Shown: piece after piece, positions 14,015-23,996 of the stretch | Position numbering within the stretch: position 1 is the first letter of the stretch | How the letters are laid out: the number at the start of each line of letters is the position of its first letter | Position numbers and translations under genes: made by a program | Notes under the pieces: generated by a model | What the model saw: the letters and a program-made list of their open reading frames with translations, nothing else | Told to the model about the DNA's origin: nothing | Database searches by the model: none | DNA from: Acidobacteriota bacterium | Lineage (GTDB): Bacteria; Acidobacteriota; Terriglobia; Terriglobales; Acidobacteriaceae | DNA length: 64,000 bases | NCBI GenBank assembly: GCA_021813745.1 | Contig: JAKAJO010000090.1 | Span: 1-64,000 of the forward strand | Direction: 5' to 3'

Positions 14015-16366
14015 ATGCCATCGGGCAGACAAAGCAGTGTGAGGGTTCACGCCTGGAGTGTTTGGGCGCTCTTGAGTGCGTGCCTTGGAGCAACTGCGTG
14101 TGGTGGCGGCGGTTTTGGCCAGTCAGGTTCTTCATCCACCACTTATGTGCTTTCCATCAAGTCTGTGAATCCGGCCAGCGGCGCAACCATCTCAGCAAGC
14201 CCGGCGGACAACCACGGTACATCGAGTGGAACGACGAGCTTCAGTCTCACTTACAACTCCGGCACAACGGTGACATTGACTGCAGCAAACACGGCAGGAG
14301 CAAACAGATTTTCCTCCTGGTCGGGATGCTCTTCCACCCAGGGACCCTCCTGCACGGTGCTGCTGAATGCCAATGAAACGGTCACGGCAACTTACGCCGT
14401 TCCCGCCATCACGTCGGTCGTCCTCTCACCCAGCCCCGCTGCAGTAACGATTGGTGGCACTCTGCAATTTACAGCCACGGTGACTGGAAATGGGAATTTC
14501 TCCAGCGCTGTGAGCTGGACTGTCAGCGCTCCTGCGGGAAGTTCCGTCAGCCCCGGAGATATTGATTCCAATGGTCTGTACACCACGCCCTATCCGGCGC
14601 CACCAACCGTGACGGTGACCGCGACCAGCGTGCAGGATCCGACGGTGTCTGGCAGTGTGAATGTGGCGCTTAATGCGCCGGCCGCCGCAACGGGCCCGGC
14701 GCTGAGCGTGGATGCAGGCAACCAGACTCATGCGATTAGTCCATACATTTACGGGATGAATGCGTGGCAACTCGTCTCGACAACTGCGAAGGCAGCGAAT
14801 ATCACCATCGATCGCTGGGGTGGTGACGCGACGACACGCTATAACTATCAACTGGATGTGACCAATTCAGCATCGGACTGGTACTTCGAGAATCAGTATG
14901 GGCTCCCCGGAGGCTCACAGAGCAATAGCAGCTTTAATGCGCAAGTTGCAGCCGACAGAGCGATCGGCGCCCGCACAATCGGCACCGTTCCGGTGCTGGG
15001 CTGGATTGCGAAGGACGGGACCTCTTGCAGTTTTCCAGTTTCTACATATCCCAACCAGCAGCAAGTGGACGGCGGCCGAAATTGTGGCAATGGAGTGTAT
15101 GCGCAAGGAGTGAACGGTTGCACAAGCGCCCAGGGATGCGACATCACTGGGGTCAATCCAACATCCACAAGCGTGGCTGTGAATGCAACCTGGGCCGGCC
15201 AATGGGTTACGTATCTCGTTAGCCAGTTCGGAACGGCCGCGAACGGCGGCGTGGCGATTTACGATCTTGACAACGAACCCAGCTGGTGGGATGCCGTGCA
15301 TCGCGATGTGCATCCGAGTCCTTTCACCTACGACGAGGTGACGAACAATGGGCTTGCCGTGGCGGCGGCCGTAAAAGCGTCGGATCCAACCGCGGAAGTC
15401 AGCGGTCCGGTCATGGATTATTGGTGGGATTACTTCTATTCGAAAAAGGACATCGAGGAGGGATGGAGTTCGGGTCCCTGCTATGAGCCGTGGGATAACC
15501 CGGTGGATCGCGAAGCACATGGCGGGATTCCCTTTATCGAGTACTATCTGGAGCAATTCGCTGCCTCCCAGGCAAAGAACAACGTGCGCTTGCTGGATTA
15601 TCTTGATCTGCACACCTATTTCGCAGCGGACAATCTCGGGTTTGCACCGGCAGGGAATACCACGGCCCAGCAGGCGCGACTTAACTCAACGCGCGTCTTC
15701 TGGGATCCCACCTACACCGATCCCAACTATCCTCAGCCGAACTACGTAACGGATGCGAACTACACATCGAACTGTACGACTCCGTTGCAGGCTCCGCAGA
15801 TCATCCCCATGATGCACCAGTGGGTGAACGCAGACTATCCGGGGACCAAACTCGCCATTACCGAATACAACTGGGGCGGACAGGAGTCAATGAACGGCGC
15901 ATTGGCCCAGGCCGACATTCTGGGCATTTTCGGACGCGAGGGCCTGGATCTTGGCACGCTGTGGGGTGCACCCGATCCTGTAAAGCAGGTGCCCGGCGTC
16001 ATGGCATTTGAGGTGTATCGCAACTATGACGGCGCCGGAGCCGTGTTTGGCGATATGGCGCTGGCATCGAGCAGCGGCGATCAGAGCAAGCTGGCGGTTT
16101 ACGGAGCCTTGCGCACGTCGGATAATGTTGTGACCGTGGTCGTGATCAACAAGACCTATGGGGATTTGAGCGCGACTTTGTCACTCGCCAACCTGACGCC
16201 CAATGGTGCGGCAAAAGTCTGGCTTTACAGCAATGCGAATCTGGCCGCCATTGTGCCTGAGGCGGACCTGAATGTGACCCCGCCAAGTGCGGGGGGCACG
16301 ACGAGCCTGATGACGGCAACATTTCCGGCGCAGTCAATTACGGTTCTCGCGATCCCAAAGATGTAG
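14015..16366 (+). CDS. Secreted GH44-like glycanase with Ig-like domains
   Basis: A 783-residue exported protein. The N-terminus has a signal peptide with possible lipobox cysteines at C23 (LSAC) or C29 (ATAC) and a Gly-rich linker. Residues 45-125 resemble a beta-repeat module (SSWSGCSS...VTATYA) and 130-220 a bacterial Ig-like domain. The catalytic part, about 230-700, has GH44 signatures: [22 protein letters not shown] and SDWYFEN. Candidate acid/base is Glu421 (LDNEPSWW) and nucleophile Glu617 (AITEYNW). A C-terminal beta-sandwich ends the protein. GH44 enzymes cut beta-1,4-glucans such as cellulose or xyloglucan; the exact substrate cannot be read here. GGAGAG precedes the start. Confidence 0.85.
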
Positions 16367-16466
16367 CCGGATCAACCGCGCCTTGCGGACCTTCAGCCCT
16401 TTATACTGGAGTGTTTGCGGCCCTTTTCACGGCAACCGCTGGCTTATCCCATCCGAGGAGAAGATC

Positions 16467-17333
16467 TTGTCTCAGGCAGAGATTGGCATTATTGGCGGGA
16501 GTGGACTTTACTCCATGCCCGGATTCACGAATGTGCGGGAAGAGCGAGTGGAAACACCGTTCGGAGAGCCTTCCGATGCATTCGTGCTGGGTGAACTGGA
16601 AGGCCGCAAAGTCGCCTTTCTTGCGCGCCATGGCCGCGGGCACCGCATTCTGCCGTCTGAGCTGAATTTCCGCGCCAACATCTACGCCTTCAAAAGGCTG
16701 GGCGTGGAGCGGATTCTGTCTGTCTCTGCCGTGGGCTCGCTGAAAGAGGAGCACAAGCCGACAGACTTTGTCGTTCCGGACCAGTTCATTGATCGCACTT
16801 TCCATCGGGTGTCTACCTTCTTTGGCGAAGGAATTGTAGGACACGTCGCTTTTGGCGATCCCGTATGCGCGACGGTTGCTCAAACCGCTTTCAAGGCGTG
16901 CGGCGCTGTGGGTGTTTCGTGCAAGCTGGGTGGCACCTACGTATGTATGGAGGGTCCGCAGTTTTCAACAAAGGCTGAGTCGAACCTGTATCGCAGCTGG
17001 GGCGCCGACGTGATCGGGATGACGAATTTGCAGGAGGCCAAGCTCGCACGGGAGGCGGAGATCTGCTACGCAACGGTGGCCATGGTAACGGACTATGATT
17101 GCTGGCGTGAAGGCCATGACGCGGTGACGATTGAAGAGATTGTCGCCGTGCTGCACCAGAATGCGGACAACGCCGCAAAGGTGGTGAAAGCAGCGGTTGC
17201 CGCAATGCCCCGGGAGCGAGCCTGCGCCTGCGCAACAGCCGCGAAGTTTGCCGTGCTGACCCAGGCAGATGTAATCCCGCAGGCAACCAAGGATAGGCTA
17301 AAGCTGCTGTTCGGCAAGTATCACAACTGGTAG
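16467..17333 (+). CDS. mtnP: S-methyl-5'-thioadenosine phosphorylase
   Basis: Phosphorolysis of methylthioadenosine to adenine and methylthioribose-1-phosphate, the first step of methionine salvage. The 288-residue length matches the trimeric MTAP family. Visible motifs are [10 protein letters not shown] (phosphate loop), [48 protein letters not shown]. The start is TTG at 16467 with GAGGAGAA eight bases upstream; the ATG at 16383 would add residues not found in the family. A TATACT at 16402-16407 may be the -10 box. A PfkB kinase gene follows 52 nt later. The later salvage genes (mtnA onward) are not in the window. Confidence 0.92.
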
Positions 17334-17385: not shown

Positions 17386-18309
17386 ATGGCGATTACGGTG
17401 GTTGGCAGTGTTGCGTTTGACTCAATTGAATCCCCGGCAGGACGCTGCGAGCGATGCCTGGGAGGCGCTGCAACGTACTTCTCGCTGGCGGCGAGCTACT
17501 TTACAGATGTGCGCGTGATTGCCGTGGTCGGTGAGGATTTTGGCGCAGAAGAGGAGCAGGTCTTTGCTTCGCATGACATCGATACCCAAGGGATCGAGCG
17601 AGCGGCCGGCAAGAGCTTTTTCTGGCAGGGCTCGTACTTGGAAAACTTAAATGAGGCAAAGACGCACGCCACGGAATTGAACGTCTTTGGAAGCTTTGAA
17701 CCGAGGATTCCCGATTCGTACCGCGACTCCGAGTTCCTCTTCCTGGCAAATATCGATCCCATTCTGCAGAGGCGCGTACGCGAGTCAATGCCACAGGTAA
17801 AGCTGGTTGCTGGCGACACAATGAACTACTGGATCAAGGATCACAAGCCAGCCTTGCTGGAAGTCTTGAAGGGCCTTGATGTGCTGCTGATCAACGACAC
17901 TGAGACGCGTATGCTGGCCCAGAACAGCAATCTTGTCCAGGCGGCACGGTCCGTGTTGGGCATGGGGCCGCGCATGCTGGTGGTCAAGCACGGCGAATAT
18001 GGCGCAACCGCCTTTCACCGCAGTGCAGAGAGTGGCGTAGGCGCAAAGCCATTCCGCGCGCCGGCGCTTCCACTTGAGCATGTTGTGGATCCGACGGGAG
18101 CGGGCGACAGCTTTGCCGGAGGCTTTTTTGGATATCTGGCCTCGCAGCCCGATATCACTCCGGCTGCTTTTCGACGTGCAATGTTTTACGGCAGCGTGAT
18201 GGGCTCGTTCACGGTGGAGCGGTTTGGCACGGAACGACTGGAACAGCTCTCCCGCGACGAGATCGACGCACGCTTCGATTTGTTTCGAGAGATTACGCAC
18301 CTTGACTGA
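17386..18309 (+). CDS. PfkB-family carbohydrate/nucleoside kinase
   Basis: ATP-dependent kinase of 307 residues. The family anion-hole and catalytic motif DPTGAGDSFAGG is at about residues 225-237, with the base Asp in GAGD; the N-terminal GGAATYF region is also typical. AAGGA precedes the ATG. It follows the MTA phosphorylase on the same strand with a 52-nt gap. Adenosine- or ribose-type substrates would suit that neighbourhood (adenine or ribose salvage), but PfkB proteins vary too much to name the substrate. The next gene overlaps its end by 8 nt. Confidence 0.85.
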   Translation: MAITVVGSVAFDSIESPAGRCERCLGGAATYFSLAASYFTDVRVIAVVGEDFGAEEEQVFASHDIDTQGIERAAGKSFFWQGSYLENLNEAKTHATELNVFGSFEPRIPDSYRDSEFLFLANIDPILQRRVRESMPQVKLVAGDTMNYWIKDHKPALLEVLKGLDVLLINDTETRMLAQNSNLVQAARSVLGMGPRMLVVKHGEYGATAFHRSAESGVGAKPFRAPALPLEHVVDPTGAGDSFAGGFFGYLASQPDITPAAFRRAMFYGSVMGSFTVERFGTERLEQLSRDEIDARFDLFREITHLD

Positions 18310-20083
18310 GCAGTTGCCAGCAGAGCGGAGTTGCTCGCGAAGGGAGCAACAGACAGTTCTGGGTTTGAGCGCCGCATTGTCGATCGTGGCATTTGCATGG
18401 GGATGGGAACATCATGCCCTGCTGAATTATGGCGACGCAGTGGCCCATCTGCACATTGCCCGCCGGGTAATTGATTCCCATCGACCGGGACTGGAGCAGC
18501 TCGGCTCGGTTTGGTTGCCGTTGCCCCATCTGCTCCTCATCCCGTTTGTCGCTGTCTACCGATGGTGGGCTGACGGTATTGCCGGCGCCGTACCATCCAT
18601 GCTTGCGTATCTCGCGGCGTGCACAGGCATCTATCGGCTGGCGCGAGCATGGCTTCGCCCTCTTCCCTCTTGCCTGGCTCTTGCTTTCTTCGCATTGAAC
18701 CCAAATCTGCTGTATCTGCAAACGACGGCCATGACCGAGCCGCTGTTTCTTGCAGAGTTTATCTGGATTGTTTTGCTACTCGTCGAGTGGCGCAAGCGAC
18801 TTGAGGCGGATGCGGACTCTGCCACGCGGAGACTATGGCCAATCGCCTGCCTCCTGATTGCCGCTATCTTCACCCGCTATGATGGCTGGATCCTTGCATT
18901 GCTGGCGTGGACCGCCATTGGCATCCTGCTGTTGCGGCAGGGGAGGCTGCGATCTCCGGCTTTCTGGCTGGCGAGTCTCGCGATTGTGGCATCTCCACTG
19001 GTCTGGTTTGCCTATAACGCGCAGGTCTACGGCGACTGGCTGGACTTTGCGCGAGGACCCTACTCCGCACAAGCGATTGAGCTGCGGACGGCTAAACCGG
19101 GCGGGCCGCCCCATCCTGGCTGGCACGATCCCTGGACTGCACTCCACTACTTTCTGAAGTGCGCTGAGTTGGATGCGTCGCCGCAAGCTGGCACCACGGC
19201 TCTTCTGGTGGTGAGCCTGCTGGGAACGGCGTGGGGCTGGATCGAGGCACACCGCCGTGCGTTCACATGGGCGCTGCTGCTTTGGTTGCCTGTTCCCTTC
19301 TACGCCTATTCGGTTGCTTACGGATCTGTCCCGATCTTTATTCCGCCTTTGTGGCCGCATTCCTGGTACAACACACGTTATGGTATGGAAGTGCTTCCCG
19401 CTTTTGCGCTGAGTCTCGGGTTTGGGGCCCGCGTTGTGCTGAGTGCAATCCATGAGTTCAAACCGCGCTGGGTGAGCGTGACAGCGTGCGTGCTGTTTGC
19501 TGGAGTCGGAGTGAATCAGTGGTTGGTTCTGCGAACCCGGCCGCTCACCTATGAAGAAGGGGTGAAGAATGTGGAAGCTCGCAGACTCCTGCTCGAAGAA
19601 ATTCCGCCTCTCCTTCGAAAGTTATTGGCATCGCGACCAGGCGGCGAAATTCTGATGGAAACATCAGTCTATCCACAGCTTGTCACGGAGACAGGCATCC
19701 CGCTGAAACAAACGATCAACGAAAGCGACAAACAGTTCTACAAGGCGGCACTGGCGGCACCGGCGGCCACAGCAGCCATTGTCGTAGCATTTGATGGTGA
19801 TGACGTGGATCGCGCAGTGAAAAAGCATCCAGAGAATTTAAGGATGATGGGCCGTTTTCATGCGCCCGGACAACCAGTTGCTACGGTGTATATCTCGACA
19901 CTGCGGGCAGCTGAACAACCGGCGAGCTCGGTGATAGCATCGGGCAAGAGCGTTCCGGACACAGACAGCATAAGTACCGATGAGATTCACAATGATCGAA
20001 GTTTGCGAACTCTACAGCCGTTGCGTGCTTTAGACCTGAATCAGGGCTGGCAAATTTCCGCAATGCAGCAGAGCAAAGCTTGA
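18302..20083 (+). CDS. GT-C fold membrane glycosyltransferase (GT39/ArnT-like)
   Basis: Large polytopic membrane protein of about 593 residues with ten or so hydrophobic helices in the first 430 residues. The acidic motif LNYGDAVAHLHIAR in the first periplasmic loop corresponds to the catalytic Asp region of polyprenyl-phosphate-sugar-dependent transferases. A soluble C-terminal domain of about 150 residues follows. Such enzymes move a sugar from a lipid carrier to lipid or protein at the outer face of the membrane; donor and acceptor are unknown. Start is uncertain: TTG at 18302 overlaps the kinase stop, TTG at 18314 is an alternative, and neither has a strong ribosome site. Confidence 0.72.
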   Translation: MTEQLPAERSCSRREQQTVLGLSAALSIVAFAWGWEHHALLNYGDAVAHLHIARRVIDSHRPGLEQLGSVWLPLPHLLLIPFVAVYRWWADGIAGAVPSMLAYLAACTGIYRLARAWLRPLPSCLALAFFALNPNLLYLQTTAMTEPLFLAEFIWIVLLLVEWRKRLEADADSATRRLWPIACLLIAAIFTRYDGWILALLAWTAIGILLLRQGRLRSPAFWLASLAIVASPLVWFAYNAQVYGDWLDFARGPYSAQAIELRTAKPGGPPHPGWHDPWTALHYFLKCAELDASPQAGTTALLVVSLLGTAWGWIEAHRRAFTWALLLWLPVPFYAYSVAYGSVPIFIPPLWPHSWYNTRYGMEVLPAFALSLGFGARVVLSAIHEFKPRWVSVTACVLFAGVGVNQWLVLRTRPLTYEEGVKNVEARRLLLEEIPPLLRKLLASRPGGEILMETSVYPQLVTETGIPLKQTINESDKQFYKAALAAPAATAAIVVAFDGDDVDRAVKKHPENLRMMGRFHAPGQPVATVYISTLRAAEQPASSVIASGKSVPDTDSISTDEIHNDRSLRTLQPLRALDLNQGWQISAMQQSKA

Positions 20084-20117: not shown

Positions 20118-20930
20118 TTGATTCCCTTTTCCAAGGCACATGCCTGCGGAAACGATTTTTTGATCGTGACCGAGGATGCGGCGCGAGGCTGCGACTTGGC
20201 CGAATTGACACGTCGTCTTTGTGCGCGCAACACAGGTGTAGGTGCGGACGGCATCGAGTTTTTCTCGTGGACCGGGCCTGATTCGGGCCGGATTCGATTG
20301 CACAATGCTGATGGATCGGTTGCAGAAATCAGTGGAAACGGAACACGTTGCGTAGCGGCGTGGATGGCAGCGACGACAGCGGCCGCGGCGGAAAGTGAAC
20401 TGCGGATTGAAACCGATGCCGGATTGCGCGTATGCCGCGTGAACAAGGTGCTCGGCTCTGCGGGGAATTCCTTTGAAATTACGACCGGAATGGGCACGCC
20501 TGTGGCATCGGTCAGCGTGGTCAAGCTGGCTGATGGTGAGCAGATTGCTGGCGCTACGGTCTCAATGGGCAATCCGCATTTTGTAATCGCGGTTGAGAGT
20601 GCGGATTTCGTGGTTGCGGGCAAGGACTGGCAGGAGATCGGCGCGGAGATCTGCACGCACCCGGATTTTCCAAAGCAAACCAATGTTGAGTTTGTGCGAG
20701 TTCGCCATTCCCATGAGATCGAGATCAGAATCTTCGAGCGCGGCGTTGGCCCTACGACCTCGTCTGGGACAGGCACGTCTGCTTCGGCAACGGCTGCGAT
20801 TCTCTACCATGGCTGCGCATCGCCGCTGAAGGTGATTGCGCCAGGCGGAGCGCAGACCGTGGAATGGAATGGCGGCGAGCTTATGCTCACAGGCCCAGCT
20901 ACCTTGATTGCACGGGGCGAGGCCTGGTGA
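20118..20930 (+). CDS. Diaminopimelate epimerase-like protein with Ser at both catalytic Cys positions
   Basis: The 270-residue protein has the two-lobed DapF fold: HACGNDF at 8-14, HNADGS at 62-67, GNGTRC at 73-78, MGNPH, and the second-lobe GTGTSAS. DapF interconverts LL- and meso-diaminopimelate with two cysteines (C73 and C217 in Haemophilus influenzae). Aligned by eye, the first is Ser72 (ISGNG instead of CGNG) and the second Ser216 (SSGTG instead of ACGSG). The Glu after GAG is Pro212. Substrate-binding Asn residues look conserved. The start is TTG at 20118 behind GGGAGG. The stop overlaps ldcA (TGATG). It may be a divergent epimerase or have another role in murein peptide metabolism. 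Confidence 0.75.
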   Translation: MIPFSKAHACGNDFLIVTEDAARGCDLAELTRRLCARNTGVGADGIEFFSWTGPDSGRIRLHNADGSVAEISGNGTRCVAAWMAATTAAAAESELRIETDAGLRVCRVNKVLGSAGNSFEITTGMGTPVASVSVVKLADGEQIAGATVSMGNPHFVIAVESADFVVAGKDWQEIGAEICTHPDFPKQTNVEFVRVRHSHEIEIRIFERGVGPTTSSGTGTSASATAAILYHGCASPLKVIAPGGAQTVEWNGGELMLTGPATLIARGEAW

Positions 20931-21874
20931 TGGCTCAAGACCTCACTCCGCTGTTGGCGATTGAAGCGATCCCACAAGATGCTGAGATCTGCGTGATTTC
21001 ACCGGCATCCTACGCAACTGCTGAGCGGATGCAGCGCGGCCTGGAACAGTTGGTGGCGCTCGGGTACCGGCCGCGCTGCACGCCCCACACACAGACGCGC
21101 GGCCCACTCTACTTCGCGGGAACCCAGGAACAACGGCTCAGCGATCTACACGCTGCCTTCAACGACCCGCACGCGAGCATCGTGGCCTGCGTGCGCGGCG
21201 GATATGGCTCCAACTACCTGCTCGCAGGGCTTGATCTTGACTTGATTCGCAGACACCCCAAGCCCTTCCTTGGCTACAGTGATTTGACAGGTATCCAACT
21301 GCACCTGCTGGATACGCTGGGCCTGCCTGCATTTCATGGCCCCATGGTGGCGGCTGACTTCTATCTGGAGGACGGCGTGCATCTGGCAAGCTTGAAGGCC
21401 GCGCTGGGCGGAATCCCCTATGCCGTGGGGGAGGATGAAGGGCTTCGGTCGCTGAAAGCAGGGAAAGCACGGGGCATGCTCTATGGAGGATGCATCAGCA
21501 TACTGACCTCGCTCCTTGGGACGCGATGGGAGCCGCGGACGGAGGGCAAGCTGCTGTTTCTGGAAGACACCGGAGTCAAGCCTTATCAACTGGACCGCAT
21601 GCTGTGGCAGTTGCGGAATGCTGGCAAATTCAACGGAGTCAAAGGAATCGTGTTTGGCGAGATGCGTGACTGCGCCTCCCACGGCGCTTCAGACGACTTG
21701 CTATGTCATTCCATTGCGCAGGCGCTTGAAGGCATTGATGTTCCGATGGCGATCGGGTTGCGCAGCGGCCACGTATCTCGGCAGAATGTGACACTCACTT
21801 TTGGCGCGCAAGCCGAGCTAGAAGTCGATTCAAATGTACGGCTCACATTGCTGGAACCGGTGGTACGCGCATGA
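20930..21874 (+). CDS. ldcA: LD-carboxypeptidase (murein tetrapeptide carboxypeptidase, S66)
   Basis: Removes the terminal D-alanine from recycled murein tetrapeptides in the cytoplasm. The protein has 314 residues. The nucleophile is Ser117 in LGYSDLT, and VRGGYGSNYLL upstream forms the oxyanion and fold signature. The C-terminal half contains the GGCISILTSLLGT, FLEDTG and GLRSGH motifs that carry the Glu and His of the triad. The start at 20930 overlaps the preceding stop; the stop overlaps mpl by ATGA. Placed between a DapF homologue and Mpl, it fits a murein-peptide recycling unit. Confidence 0.9.
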   Translation: MAQDLTPLLAIEAIPQDAEICVISPASYATAERMQRGLEQLVALGYRPRCTPHTQTRGPLYFAGTQEQRLSDLHAAFNDPHASIVACVRGGYGSNYLLAGLDLDLIRRHPKPFLGYSDLTGIQLHLLDTLGLPAFHGPMVAADFYLEDGVHLASLKAALGGIPYAVGEDEGLRSLKAGKARGMLYGGCISILTSLLGTRWEPRTEGKLLFLEDTGVKPYQLDRMLWQLRNAGKFNGVKGIVFGEMRDCASHGASDDLLCHSIAQALEGIDVPMAIGLRSGHVSRQNVTLTFGAQAELEVDSNVRLTLLEPVVRA

Positions 21875-23289
21875 GCCGGCATATCCATTTGAGCGGCATC
21901 TGCGGAACCGCAATGGCATCACTTGCAGGATTGTTGCAATTGCAGGGTCATCGTGTGACCGGCTCGGACAAGGCCGCGTATCCGCCAATGAGCACCCTGC
22001 TCGCAAGCCTTGGTATTCCTGTGGCAGAGCCGTATGCCGCAGCGAATCTGGATCCGCATCCGGATCTGGTGGTGATTGGCAACGCGCTTTCCCGGGGCAA
22101 TCCGGAAGTCGAGATGATCCTCGACCAGCGAATCCCTTTCACTTCAATGGCGGCATTGCTGCGCGATGAATTTCTCAAAGGGCGTGAGTCGCTGGTTGTT
22201 GCCGGAACCCACGGAAAGACGACCACGACGAGCATGCTGGCGTGGATCTTTCAGGTCGCTTCAAGGAAGGACCCGGCGTTTGAGCCTTCTTTTTTGATCG
22301 GCGGTGTCGCGGAAAATTTCGGATCCAGTTTTCAATTGCGGCCGACACGCACCTTCATTGTGGAAGGCGACGAGTACGACACGGCCTTCTTCGATAAAGG
22401 ACCGAAGTTTTTGCATTACTTTCCGGACGCAATGATTCTGACGCACGTTGAGTTCGATCATGCGGATATCTACGCCGATCTGGACGCAGTGAAGACGGCG
22501 TTTAAGCGGCTCGTGAATCTGGTGCCGGGACGCGGCCGGATTGTGGCCTACGATGCTAGCCCGAATGTCTCCGAGTGCGTGCAGCGTGCCTTTTGCCGCG
22601 TAGAGCGATACGGCTTCAGCGCGGCCGCCGACTGGCAAATTCGCAATTTGCGACAGGAGGCTGGTGTTTCGCGTTGGAACGTTTGGCATGACGGGGTGCT
22701 CTGGTCGGAGTTCGCAATGCCCCTGGCAGGCGAGCATAATGCACTGAATGCCACAGCCGCAGTGGCACTGGCAGCAGGTCAGGGAATTCCACCGCCGATA
22801 ATCGCAGAGGCAATTGCGAATTTCAAAAGCGTCAAACGGCGGCTTGAAGTGCGCGCCGTTGTGAATGGAATCTCCGTTATTGACGACTTCGCGCATCATC
22901 CGACGGCGATCCGCGAGACACTGCGCGCCTTGCGTGTGGTCTATCCGGGTGCGCGGCTTTGGGCTGTGCTGGAACCACGCTCGAACACGCTGCGACGCAG
23001 GGTCCTGGCGGACGATCTGGTTCAGAGCCTGCGTCAGGCCGATCGCGTGGTGCTTGCCGGGGTTTACCAGCAGCAACGCATTCCTGACGGGGAACGACTT
23101 CACCCTGAAGAAGTTGTGGATGCGCTGCAATCCAGTGGCACGCCTGCGGCCCTCTATGAGAATGCGGATGCCATCGTGGCAGCGCTTGTGCCACAACTTC
23201 AATCGGGCGATGTGGTCGCGATCCTGTCAAATGGAGGCTTCGACGAAATTTATGAGAAGCTGCCGGCACGCCTCCGGGAGTCGCAATGA
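21871..23289 (+). CDS. mpl: UDP-MurNAc:L-Ala-gamma-D-Glu-meso-DAP ligase
   Basis: Mur-ligase family enzyme that attaches the recycled tripeptide directly to UDP-MurNAc. The 472-residue protein begins with the Rossmann motif HLSGICGTAMASLAG and has the ATP loop GTHGKTTTTSM, then EGDEYDTAFFDKGPKF, which is characteristic of Mpl rather than MurC. HVEFDHADIY and the C-terminal DDFAHHPTAI follow. It overlaps ldcA (ATGA) and plsC (ATGA), so the set is translationally coupled. Together with LdcA it forms the last two steps of murein tripeptide recycling. Confidence 0.93.
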   Translation: MSRHIHLSGICGTAMASLAGLLQLQGHRVTGSDKAAYPPMSTLLASLGIPVAEPYAAANLDPHPDLVVIGNALSRGNPEVEMILDQRIPFTSMAALLRDEFLKGRESLVVAGTHGKTTTTSMLAWIFQVASRKDPAFEPSFLIGGVAENFGSSFQLRPTRTFIVEGDEYDTAFFDKGPKFLHYFPDAMILTHVEFDHADIYADLDAVKTAFKRLVNLVPGRGRIVAYDASPNVSECVQRAFCRVERYGFSAAADWQIRNLRQEAGVSRWNVWHDGVLWSEFAMPLAGEHNALNATAAVALAAGQGIPPPIIAEAIANFKSVKRRLEVRAVVNGISVIDDFAHHPTAIRETLRALRVVYPGARLWAVLEPRSNTLRRRVLADDLVQSLRQADRVVLAGVYQQQRIPDGERLHPEEVVDALQSSGTPAALYENADAIVAALVPQLQSGDVVAILSNGGFDEIYEKLPARLRESQ

Positions 23290-23996
23290 TCACGTCGCTG
23301 TTGATGCTGGCCACAATCGTTTCGTTGAGCCTGCCTGCAGCCATTGTCTTTATTCCCTGGGCTGTCCTGACGGGCAATGCCACGCCACTTTACAACGCCG
23401 CACAGCGCATTGTGAGGGCCAGTTTCACCGTGGGACGGATCCGGGTGGTGACATCAGGGCTTGAACATGTTCCGGCAGGAACCGCCTGCATCTTCATGGC
23501 GAACCATGTTTCAAACCTCGATCCACCAACGTTGATCCCGCGGATTCCGGGACGCACTTCCGTTTTCCTCAAGCGCTCCCTGATGAAGATTCCCGTTCTT
23601 GGGTATGGGATGAAGCTGGGGGAGTTTATTCCGGTAGACCGGGATGGCCGTGTGGACACCGCCATTCAGAGCGTACGGGCCGCAGAACGAGTGCTGCAAA
23701 AAGGGCTGCACATTACGACATTTGTGGAAGGCACGCGCTCGCGGGATGGGCGCATGCTGCCTTTCAAGAAGGGGCCTTTTTACCTTGCCATGGAGACCGG
23801 AGCACCGTGTATTCCTGTATCGATTCACGGGACAGAGACGATGATGGCAAAAGGCAGTCTCAAGATCCAGCCAAGCACGGCCTATCTCACGTTTCATCCT
23901 CCCGTGTTTCCGCGAGATTATGCAGCGCGGGATGAGTTGATGAAGGCCGTCCGGACGTCAATTGCCTCCGGTTTACCCGAGTGGATGCGCACCTAG
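23286..23996 (+). CDS. plsC: 1-acyl-sn-glycerol-3-phosphate acyltransferase
   Basis: Second acylation of phospholipid synthesis at the inner membrane. The protein has 236 residues, one N-terminal hydrophobic segment (about 5-25), the catalytic HxxxxD in NHVSNLDP, and the substrate motif FVEGTRSRDG. A third motif, GAPCIPVSIHGTE, follows. It is the last gene of the dapF-like/ldcA/mpl unit, overlapping mpl by 4 nt, and faces the SPOR gene across only 11 nt. Confidence 0.9.
   Translation: MITSLLMLATIVSLSLPAAIVFIPWAVLTGNATPLYNAAQRIVRASFTVGRIRVVTSGLEHVPAGTACIFMANHVSNLDPPTLIPRIPGRTSVFLKRSLMKIPVLGYGMKLGEFIPVDRDGRVDTAIQSVRAAERVLQKGLHITTFVEGTRSRDGRMLPFKKGPFYLAMETGAPCIPVSIHGTETMMAKGSLKIQPSTAYLTFHPPVFPRDYAARDELMKAVRTSIASGLPEWMRT

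Follow-up and report, generated by a model that had tools for sequence, protein, structure and literature searches.

The DapF-family protein encoded in the window (the whole stretch of acidobacterial DNA that was analysed, 64,000 nucleotides) carries serine at both positions that are occupied by catalytic cysteine in diaminopimelate (DAP) epimerase, and it is probably a genuine LL/meso-DAP epimerase that uses Ser72/Ser216 in place of the Cys73/Cys217 acid-base pair. This reading is based on the predicted fold, the intact set of DAP-binding residues, the constancy of the two serines, the occurrence of the protein as the sole DapF in its genome, and the lack of DAP dehydrogenase in its relatives. 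We also lean, though only slightly, towards the broader view that much of the phylum makes meso-DAP by a cofactor-free Ser/Ser epimerase, which would overturn the paired-cysteine rule, and that this type had more than one origin, with Cys/Ser forms adjoining one of them.

The features of the locus are collected in Table 1. The start of the LdcA-like gene was inferred to be the ATG that overlaps the DapF stop codon (TGATG, read at positions 20924-20936), the mechanical start of this open reading frame being at 20864. Four-base overlaps (ATGA) also connect the LdcA-like gene with Mpl and Mpl with the PlsC-like gene, and because of these stop/start overlaps the four genes from dapF to the PlsC-like acyltransferase are likely translated in series. 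The coupling of the gene to LdcA and Mpl, which the original prediction had described as operon partners, is thereby confirmed. Upstream of the cluster, window positions 14015-16366 hold a 783-aa open reading frame with the look of a secreted protein.

Table 1. Genes and active-site codons at the dapF locus of the window.
Feature	Position	Strand	Basis
Ser/Ser DapF-family protein, 270 aa, TTG start	20118..20930	+	TIGR00652, PF01678 (two domains)
Ser72 codon AGT (catalytic Cys73 position)	20331..20333	+	Alignment with E. coli K-12 DapF
Ser216 codon TCT (catalytic Cys217 position)	20763..20765	+	Alignment with E. coli K-12 DapF
Pro212 codon CCT (Glu213 position)	20751..20753	+	Alignment with E. 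coli K-12 DapF
LdcA-like LD-carboxypeptidase (S66)	20930..21874	+	PF02016 and PF17676 above cut-off
Mpl, UDP-MurNAc:L-Ala-gamma-D-Glu-meso-DAP ligase	21871..23289	+	TIGR01081, 441.8 bits (cut-off 388.7)
PlsC-like acyltransferase	23286..23996	+	PF01553, 95 bits
Membrane-type protein, glycosyltransferase-like by eye only	18224..20083	+	No family above its cut-off
PfkB-family kinase	17386..18309	+	PF00294, 77 bits
Methylthioadenosine phosphorylase (MTAP)	16383..17333	+	TIGR01694, 328.6 bits (cut-off 274.85)

The window protein scored 190.4 bits against TIGR00652 (cut-off 114.65) and 150.6 bits against PF01678 (cut-off 34.7), the latter being the only Pfam model that matched it at E <= 0.001. The alignment with E. 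coli DapF bore out the substitutions listed in the original prediction, namely serine for both catalytic cysteines and proline for the active-site Glu, as well as its description of the remaining active-site frame as intact, with the GND, NADGS, MGNPH, and GTG motifs all present. The Glu213 position is not diagnostic, as Arabidopsis DapF has Ala there. The Cys/Cys pair and the Cys-containing PROSITE motif of DapF (the motif as quoted in the accessible part of PMC8225329) are lacking in the window protein due to Ser72 and Ser216. Judged by its sequence, the protein is a DapF-family homologue and not a canonical DapF. Since it lies far above the DapF cut-off, automated annotation conceals the Ser/Ser question.

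The distribution of the substitutions was determined using two collections of genes. The first set comprised 111 loci, in which separate records may share genomes: 29 from relatives, 80 from named Acidobacteriota records, and the window's own gene in two copies. The first site was Ser in all 111 loci and the second site was Ser in an open frame in 110. The remaining locus (L091) has an in-frame stop just before the second serine motif, with the Ser following in the same frame, due to either an assembly base error or a nonsense mutation. The second collection consisted of 247 genomes sampled across the phylum, each at least 90% complete; PF01678 was present in 241 of these, and from 182 of the 241 the dapF gene was fetched and both catalytic columns were read. 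There were 106 Ser/Ser, 70 Cys/Cys, 4 Cys/Ser, and 2 truncated genes among the 182, and no gene of the Ser/Cys type. When grouped by family, 36 of the 69 families read had Ser/Ser only, 26 Cys/Cys only, 4 Cys/Ser only, and 3 (f25, f30, and f43) both Ser/Ser and Cys/Cys; the DapF types replace one another across families. The Cys/Ser DapFs (L158, L243, L277, and L310) are natural half-way forms. Matches were also present in 104 plasmid records, of which six were read, giving five Cys/Cys genes and one gene from Sphingomonas. The latter (L425, plasmid p1 of Sphingomonas morindae), when viewed by eye, is of the Cys/Ser type with Asp in place of Asn11 (motif GDDF), and is possibly an altered or dead paralogue.

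For the analysis of the substrate site, 213 Ser/Ser proteins were aligned, which included the 111 of the first set (two of them the window's own gene, and L091 with its stop read through) and a further 10 from family f1. The long or gappy Ser/Ser rows L284, L290, and L314 as well as the Ser/Ser protein L291 were kept outside the 213. The DAP contacts given for Anabaena DapF in the accessible part of PMC12039745 are Asn13, Asn66, Asn164, Asn197, Glu215, and Arg216, which match the E. coli columns N11, N64, N157, N190, E208, and R209, and all six are kept in the window protein. Within the Ser/Ser set N63, N152, N189, and E207 were each present in 213/213 proteins and N12 and R208 each in 212/213, an invariance that is partly kinship because 121 of the 213 proteins belong to the first set or to family f1. 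All six residues were also kept in the divergent rows L284, L290, and L314; the separate protein L291 has Val for Asn152. In the Acidobacteriota Cys/Cys DapFs, Val (GVPH) occupied the DAP-binding Asn157 position in 51 of 68 proteins. These Cys/Cys proteins (L152, L249, and most others) often have one extra residue in the RGVEGET loop and form a separate DapF subfamily. The kept contacts for the free distal amino and carboxyl groups would favour free DAP over a murein peptide as the ligand of the Ser/Ser proteins.

Conservation of at least 93% among the Ser/Ser proteins was found at 39 columns, and only at columns 72 and 216 did they depart from every one of the four reference enzymes (DapF of E. 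coli, P. aeruginosa, Arabidopsis, and C. glutamicum). The position of E. coli Arg82 was Ala in 198 of the 213 proteins and the residue preceding Ser216 was Ser in 176; both may be compensating changes in the native Ser/Ser proteins. A conserved cysteine elsewhere in the protein was rejected as a substitute for the lost pair, since Cys35 and Cys78 are conserved yet common in canonical enzymes and Cys10 is present in only 114 of the 213.

The AF2 model of the window protein, calculated from a 31-row alignment, had a mean pLDDT of 96.3 and the two-lobed DapF fold. Its best structural match was 9mro_A (Z 34.7, rmsd 2.3, 258 residues), tied with 3ejx_D (Z 34.4, rmsd 2.2, 259 residues), and both are, by their titles, DapFs in complex with DAP analogues. 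The folds of proline racemase and hydroxyproline epimerase ranked below DapF. An O-ureidoserine racemase was the third match (Z 33.4), and therefore the fold does not fix the substrate. This closeness lends some credit to a different reaction or substrate (e.g., dehydration, as by the Ser/Thr 3-hydroxyproline dehydratase, or racemisation of an amino acid derived from murein), an alternative not far from the one raised in the original prediction, and so does the proline racemase superfamily, where according to the accessible text of PMC4113996 loss of Cys can accompany another reaction, as in that dehydratase. We nevertheless consider this alternative very unlikely, as the DAP contacts, including those recognising the free distal amino acid, are kept, which would be unexpected after a change of substrate, and as the gene is near-universal and usually single-copy, unlike a patchy accessory catabolic gene.

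The codons used for the two serines were compared in the 194 distinct Ser/Ser gene sequences that remained after identical ones had been removed. Ser72 was encoded by TCN in 109 genes and by AGY in 85, with at least six switches between the classes on the tree, and Ser216 by TCN in 183 and by AGY in 11, with at least two switches. The TCN and AGY sets are not one base apart, and the main Ser/Ser group is without any row of another type. The pattern indicates that serine itself is under selection at positions 72 and 216. Pairwise dN/dS had a median of 0.12 (93 pairs). Chance, a frameshift, or an assembly error as the source of the serines is ruled out by the 111-locus set together with this low dN/dS. 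The retention of serine through codon-class switches exceeds what would be asked of residues that only shape the site of a DAP epimerase whose base is water or another residue (e.g., His154, Glu207, or Thr213). Glu207 and Thr213 are each found in 213/213 Ser/Ser proteins, as such an enzyme would lead one to expect; the same candidate residues occur in Cys/Cys enzymes, however, and the His154 column is variable (His in 164, Gln in 38, and Val in 6 of the 213), and we regard this possibility as more unlikely still than a changed reaction.

Rows L284, L290, and L314 (Ser/Ser) and L320 and L327 (Cys/Cys) were dropped as long or gappy from the trees and from the codon, dN/dS, and column counts, and the truncated L281 and L322 were dropped from all trees. 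In a 194-row quick tree the 117 main Ser/Ser rows formed one group (support 77), which adjoined the DapFs of E. coli, P. aeruginosa, and Arabidopsis and not the Acidobacteriota Cys/Cys group. A 61-row tree inferred under a mixture model placed two rows of f25, a family that we guess to be Geothrix-like, elsewhere; a constraint holding together all Ser/Ser rows except L291 was not rejected under the same 61-row mixture model (p 0.885). L291 (genome G041) is a Ser/Ser protein inside the Acidobacteriota Cys/Cys group, where it adjoins Cys/Ser proteins. From this placement it would follow that the second-site serine arose more than once, and the Cys/Ser forms may be intermediates.

Neither PF01678 (no second protein in genome G000, 92% complete) nor a 28-row profile (remaining matches at E 0.28 or worse) revealed another DapF in the window's genome. 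Across the phylum, 225 of the 241 genomes had one or two half-domain PF01678 matches, as a single protein would give. Among the other 16 are seven f25 genomes in which a Ser/Ser gene is joined by a third PF01678 match, probably a divergent Cys/Cys copy of DapF; the Ser/Ser DapF would therefore not be the sole enzyme there. In four of the seven f25 Ser/Ser genes (L174, L209, L213, L217, L224, L228, and L252) SGDG replaces SGNG.

A need for meso-DAP was inferred from LysA, present in 40 of 41 relatives, and from MurE, whose DNPR motif (which we take to be the DAP-type signature) was found in 23 of 23 genomes read. Among the known kinds of DAP epimerase, the window protein is thus the only candidate in its genome, which is 92% complete and for which this need is presumed. 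DAP dehydrogenase (PF16654) was rejected as an alternative route because it was found in 0 of 41 relatives. In the phylum sample it was matched in 2 of 247 genomes, both times partially; the two genomes belong to genus g49 of f30, and all seven DapF genes that could be read in this genus are Cys/Cys. DapL was likewise rejected as a general route, being found in at least 10 of 247 genomes (E <= 1e-80; a lower bound, as no more than 7 candidates per genome were scored out of up to 15). The original prediction had held that a double-serine protein should not be a normal epimerase, which is not favoured by the lack of a canonical dapF in the genome and by the usual occurrence of one DapF in the phylum. 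It had also named normal epimerase activity combined with the absence of any other dapF as the outcome that would speak against it, and the absence of another dapF is what the search of the genome returned.

No PF01678 match was found in six of the 41 relatives and in six of the 247 genomes sampled across the phylum, and a sensitive profile gave no credible match in these. LysA was kept in five of the six DapF-less relatives and the DNPR-type MurE in the five DapF-less genomes looked at. Incompleteness alone would be expected to account for about 4.4 absences among the 41 relatives vs the six observed. Two DapF-less genomes are harder to dismiss, namely G268 (100% complete, 40 contigs) and G040 (100%, 360 contigs): if they are truly without DapF, another source of meso-DAP exists and the sole-enzyme argument is weakened. 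The joint loss of dapF and Mpl in G011, G013, G017, and G022 was set aside as a functional link to recycling because the dapF locus coincides with a contig break in G011 and G017 and because G013 and G022 yielded no SPFH neighbour. In G011 (L371:1-1787) a transposase-like remnant, recognised by eye, and two tandem PlsC-like genes lie at the expected Mpl end, where the contig starts.

The genomic context of dapF varied among genomes. LdcA and Mpl were located beside dapF in almost every f1 locus whose flanks were long enough, and neither was seen in the 10 f2 loci within the 1-1.5 kb per side that was examined; PlsC was a neighbour in 7 of these 10. A homologue of the membrane-type protein was encoded immediately upstream of dapF in most f1 loci and in 9 of 10 f2 loci, and a PfkB-family gene was found near Ser/Ser dapF in other families as well. 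Neighbours elsewhere were HtrA-like proteases, PBP4, M20 hydrolases, DapL, PfkB, and MTAP. The M20 neighbours scored under the DapE equivalog cut-offs and were not counted as proof of DapE. In 40 neighbourhoods of about 7-13 kb each, dapA, dapB, dapD, and lysA were never found beside dapF, and DapL was found there once. In that locus (G220, L415:5399-7465) a divergent dapF with Ser at the second site lies immediately upstream of DapL (612 bits), which is followed by a SAM hydrolase-like gene; the DapF has an unusual insertion and its first site is lost at the contig end. The varied neighbours are more in keeping with a housekeeping role than with a gene dedicated to recycling, without amounting to proof. 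The peptide-acting role that the original prediction had suggested is not favoured, given that the 213 proteins show almost no variation in the residues for the free amino and carboxyl groups at the distal end of DAP, and that the adjacency of LdcA and Mpl is local.

With DapF (TIGR00652, PF01678, EC 5.1.1.7) the window protein has in common whole-length homology, the predicted fold, the DAP-binding residues, and a near-universal, usually single-copy gene; it differs in having Ser at both catalytic Cys positions, and the E. coli Arg82 position is mostly Ala in the Ser/Ser set. A double-Ser enzyme cannot use the published thiol/thiolate mechanism, in line with the view of the original prediction that DapF needs its Cys pair. 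The H. influenzae DapF mutants C73S and C217S (PDB 2q9h and 2q9j), both among the structural matches, have Ser at one of the same positions, but they are engineered single mutants and not a natural double-serine protein. HisR and CntK, like the O-ureidoserine racemase, were further structural matches of the model. The DapF-like racemases PddB, HisR, CntK, and DcsC share the two-base design and act on other substrates. CntK and DcsC use a Cys/Cys pair. PddB and HisR do so too according to the accessible parts of their descriptions, in which the Cys-to-Ser mutants of HisR have greatly reduced activity and those of PddB less than 0.1% activity left, with similar said of M. tuberculosis DapF (PMC8225329).

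A precedent for serine in this role comes from the accessible part of PMC4113996, which describes a 4-hydroxyproline epimerase of the same fold that has Ser93 and Cys on opposite faces. This Ser-Cys epimerase and the Ser-Thr 3-hydroxyproline dehydratase resemble the window protein in fold and in having Ser for the first Cys, where it is taken as catalytic; unlike the window protein, the epimerase retains one Cys, the Ser-Thr enzyme is a dehydratase, and the substrates are prolines. No Ser/Ser epimerase appears in that part of the account of the proline racemase superfamily. Among the matches listed in open papers, to which the literature search was confined (subscription literature lay outside its scope), no title referred to a Ser/Ser DapF and nothing concerned the wall DAP isomer of these bacteria.

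The near-dead Cys-to-Ser mutants and the genomes without DapF count against Ser/Ser catalysis. Together with the translational coupling to LdcA and Mpl in the family of the window gene, they are also what speaks for a DAP-binding protein that is not an epimerase (a sensor, carrier, or regulator of murein recycling), with an unrecognised enzyme making meso-DAP; genomes that have LysA and MurE yet no DapF suggest that another source of meso-DAP may exist. We consider this rather unlikely. It would require an unrecognised epimerase in 36 of the 69 families read, and none in those that have a Cys/Cys DapF, the linkage to LdcA and Mpl is not general, and the conservation of the catalytic frame, including the residues around both serines, is that of an enzyme.

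If the protein is a Ser/Ser epimerase, as we favour, the distal half of DAP would be gripped by Asn63, Asn152, Asn189, Glu207, and Arg208, and the proximal carboxylate would be seated at the N-terminal ends of a pair of helices, one beginning at Ser72 and the other at Ser216. One of the serines, its pKa lowered by the helix dipole and backbone NH groups, would take the alpha proton, and the other would return a proton from the opposite face. The cost would be the formation of an alkoxide, serine being the poorer acid, and the stronger base may partly repay it in the case of a very weakly acidic C-H. C. glutamicum DapF is inactivated by a disulfide (accessible part of PMC5296763), which a Ser/Ser pair could not form, and freedom from it would, speculatively, suit aerobic life in soil.

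Cofactor-independent racemases are the textbook example of a thiol/thiolate pair that removes a very weakly acidic proton. The double-serine version of what is normally an essential enzyme of cell-wall and lysine synthesis is the only copy found in the host and in many relatives, and either serine performs a job thought to need cysteine or an unrecognised enzyme performs that job. A natural Ser/Ser protein under strong selection, with 106 sampled variants, makes it directly testable whether the residue must be cysteine. If the protein is inactive, an undiscovered source of meso-DAP must exist in these bacteria; if it is active, it would be immune to disulfide inactivation of the C. glutamicum type and probably also to thiol-directed inhibitors of the aziDAP type.
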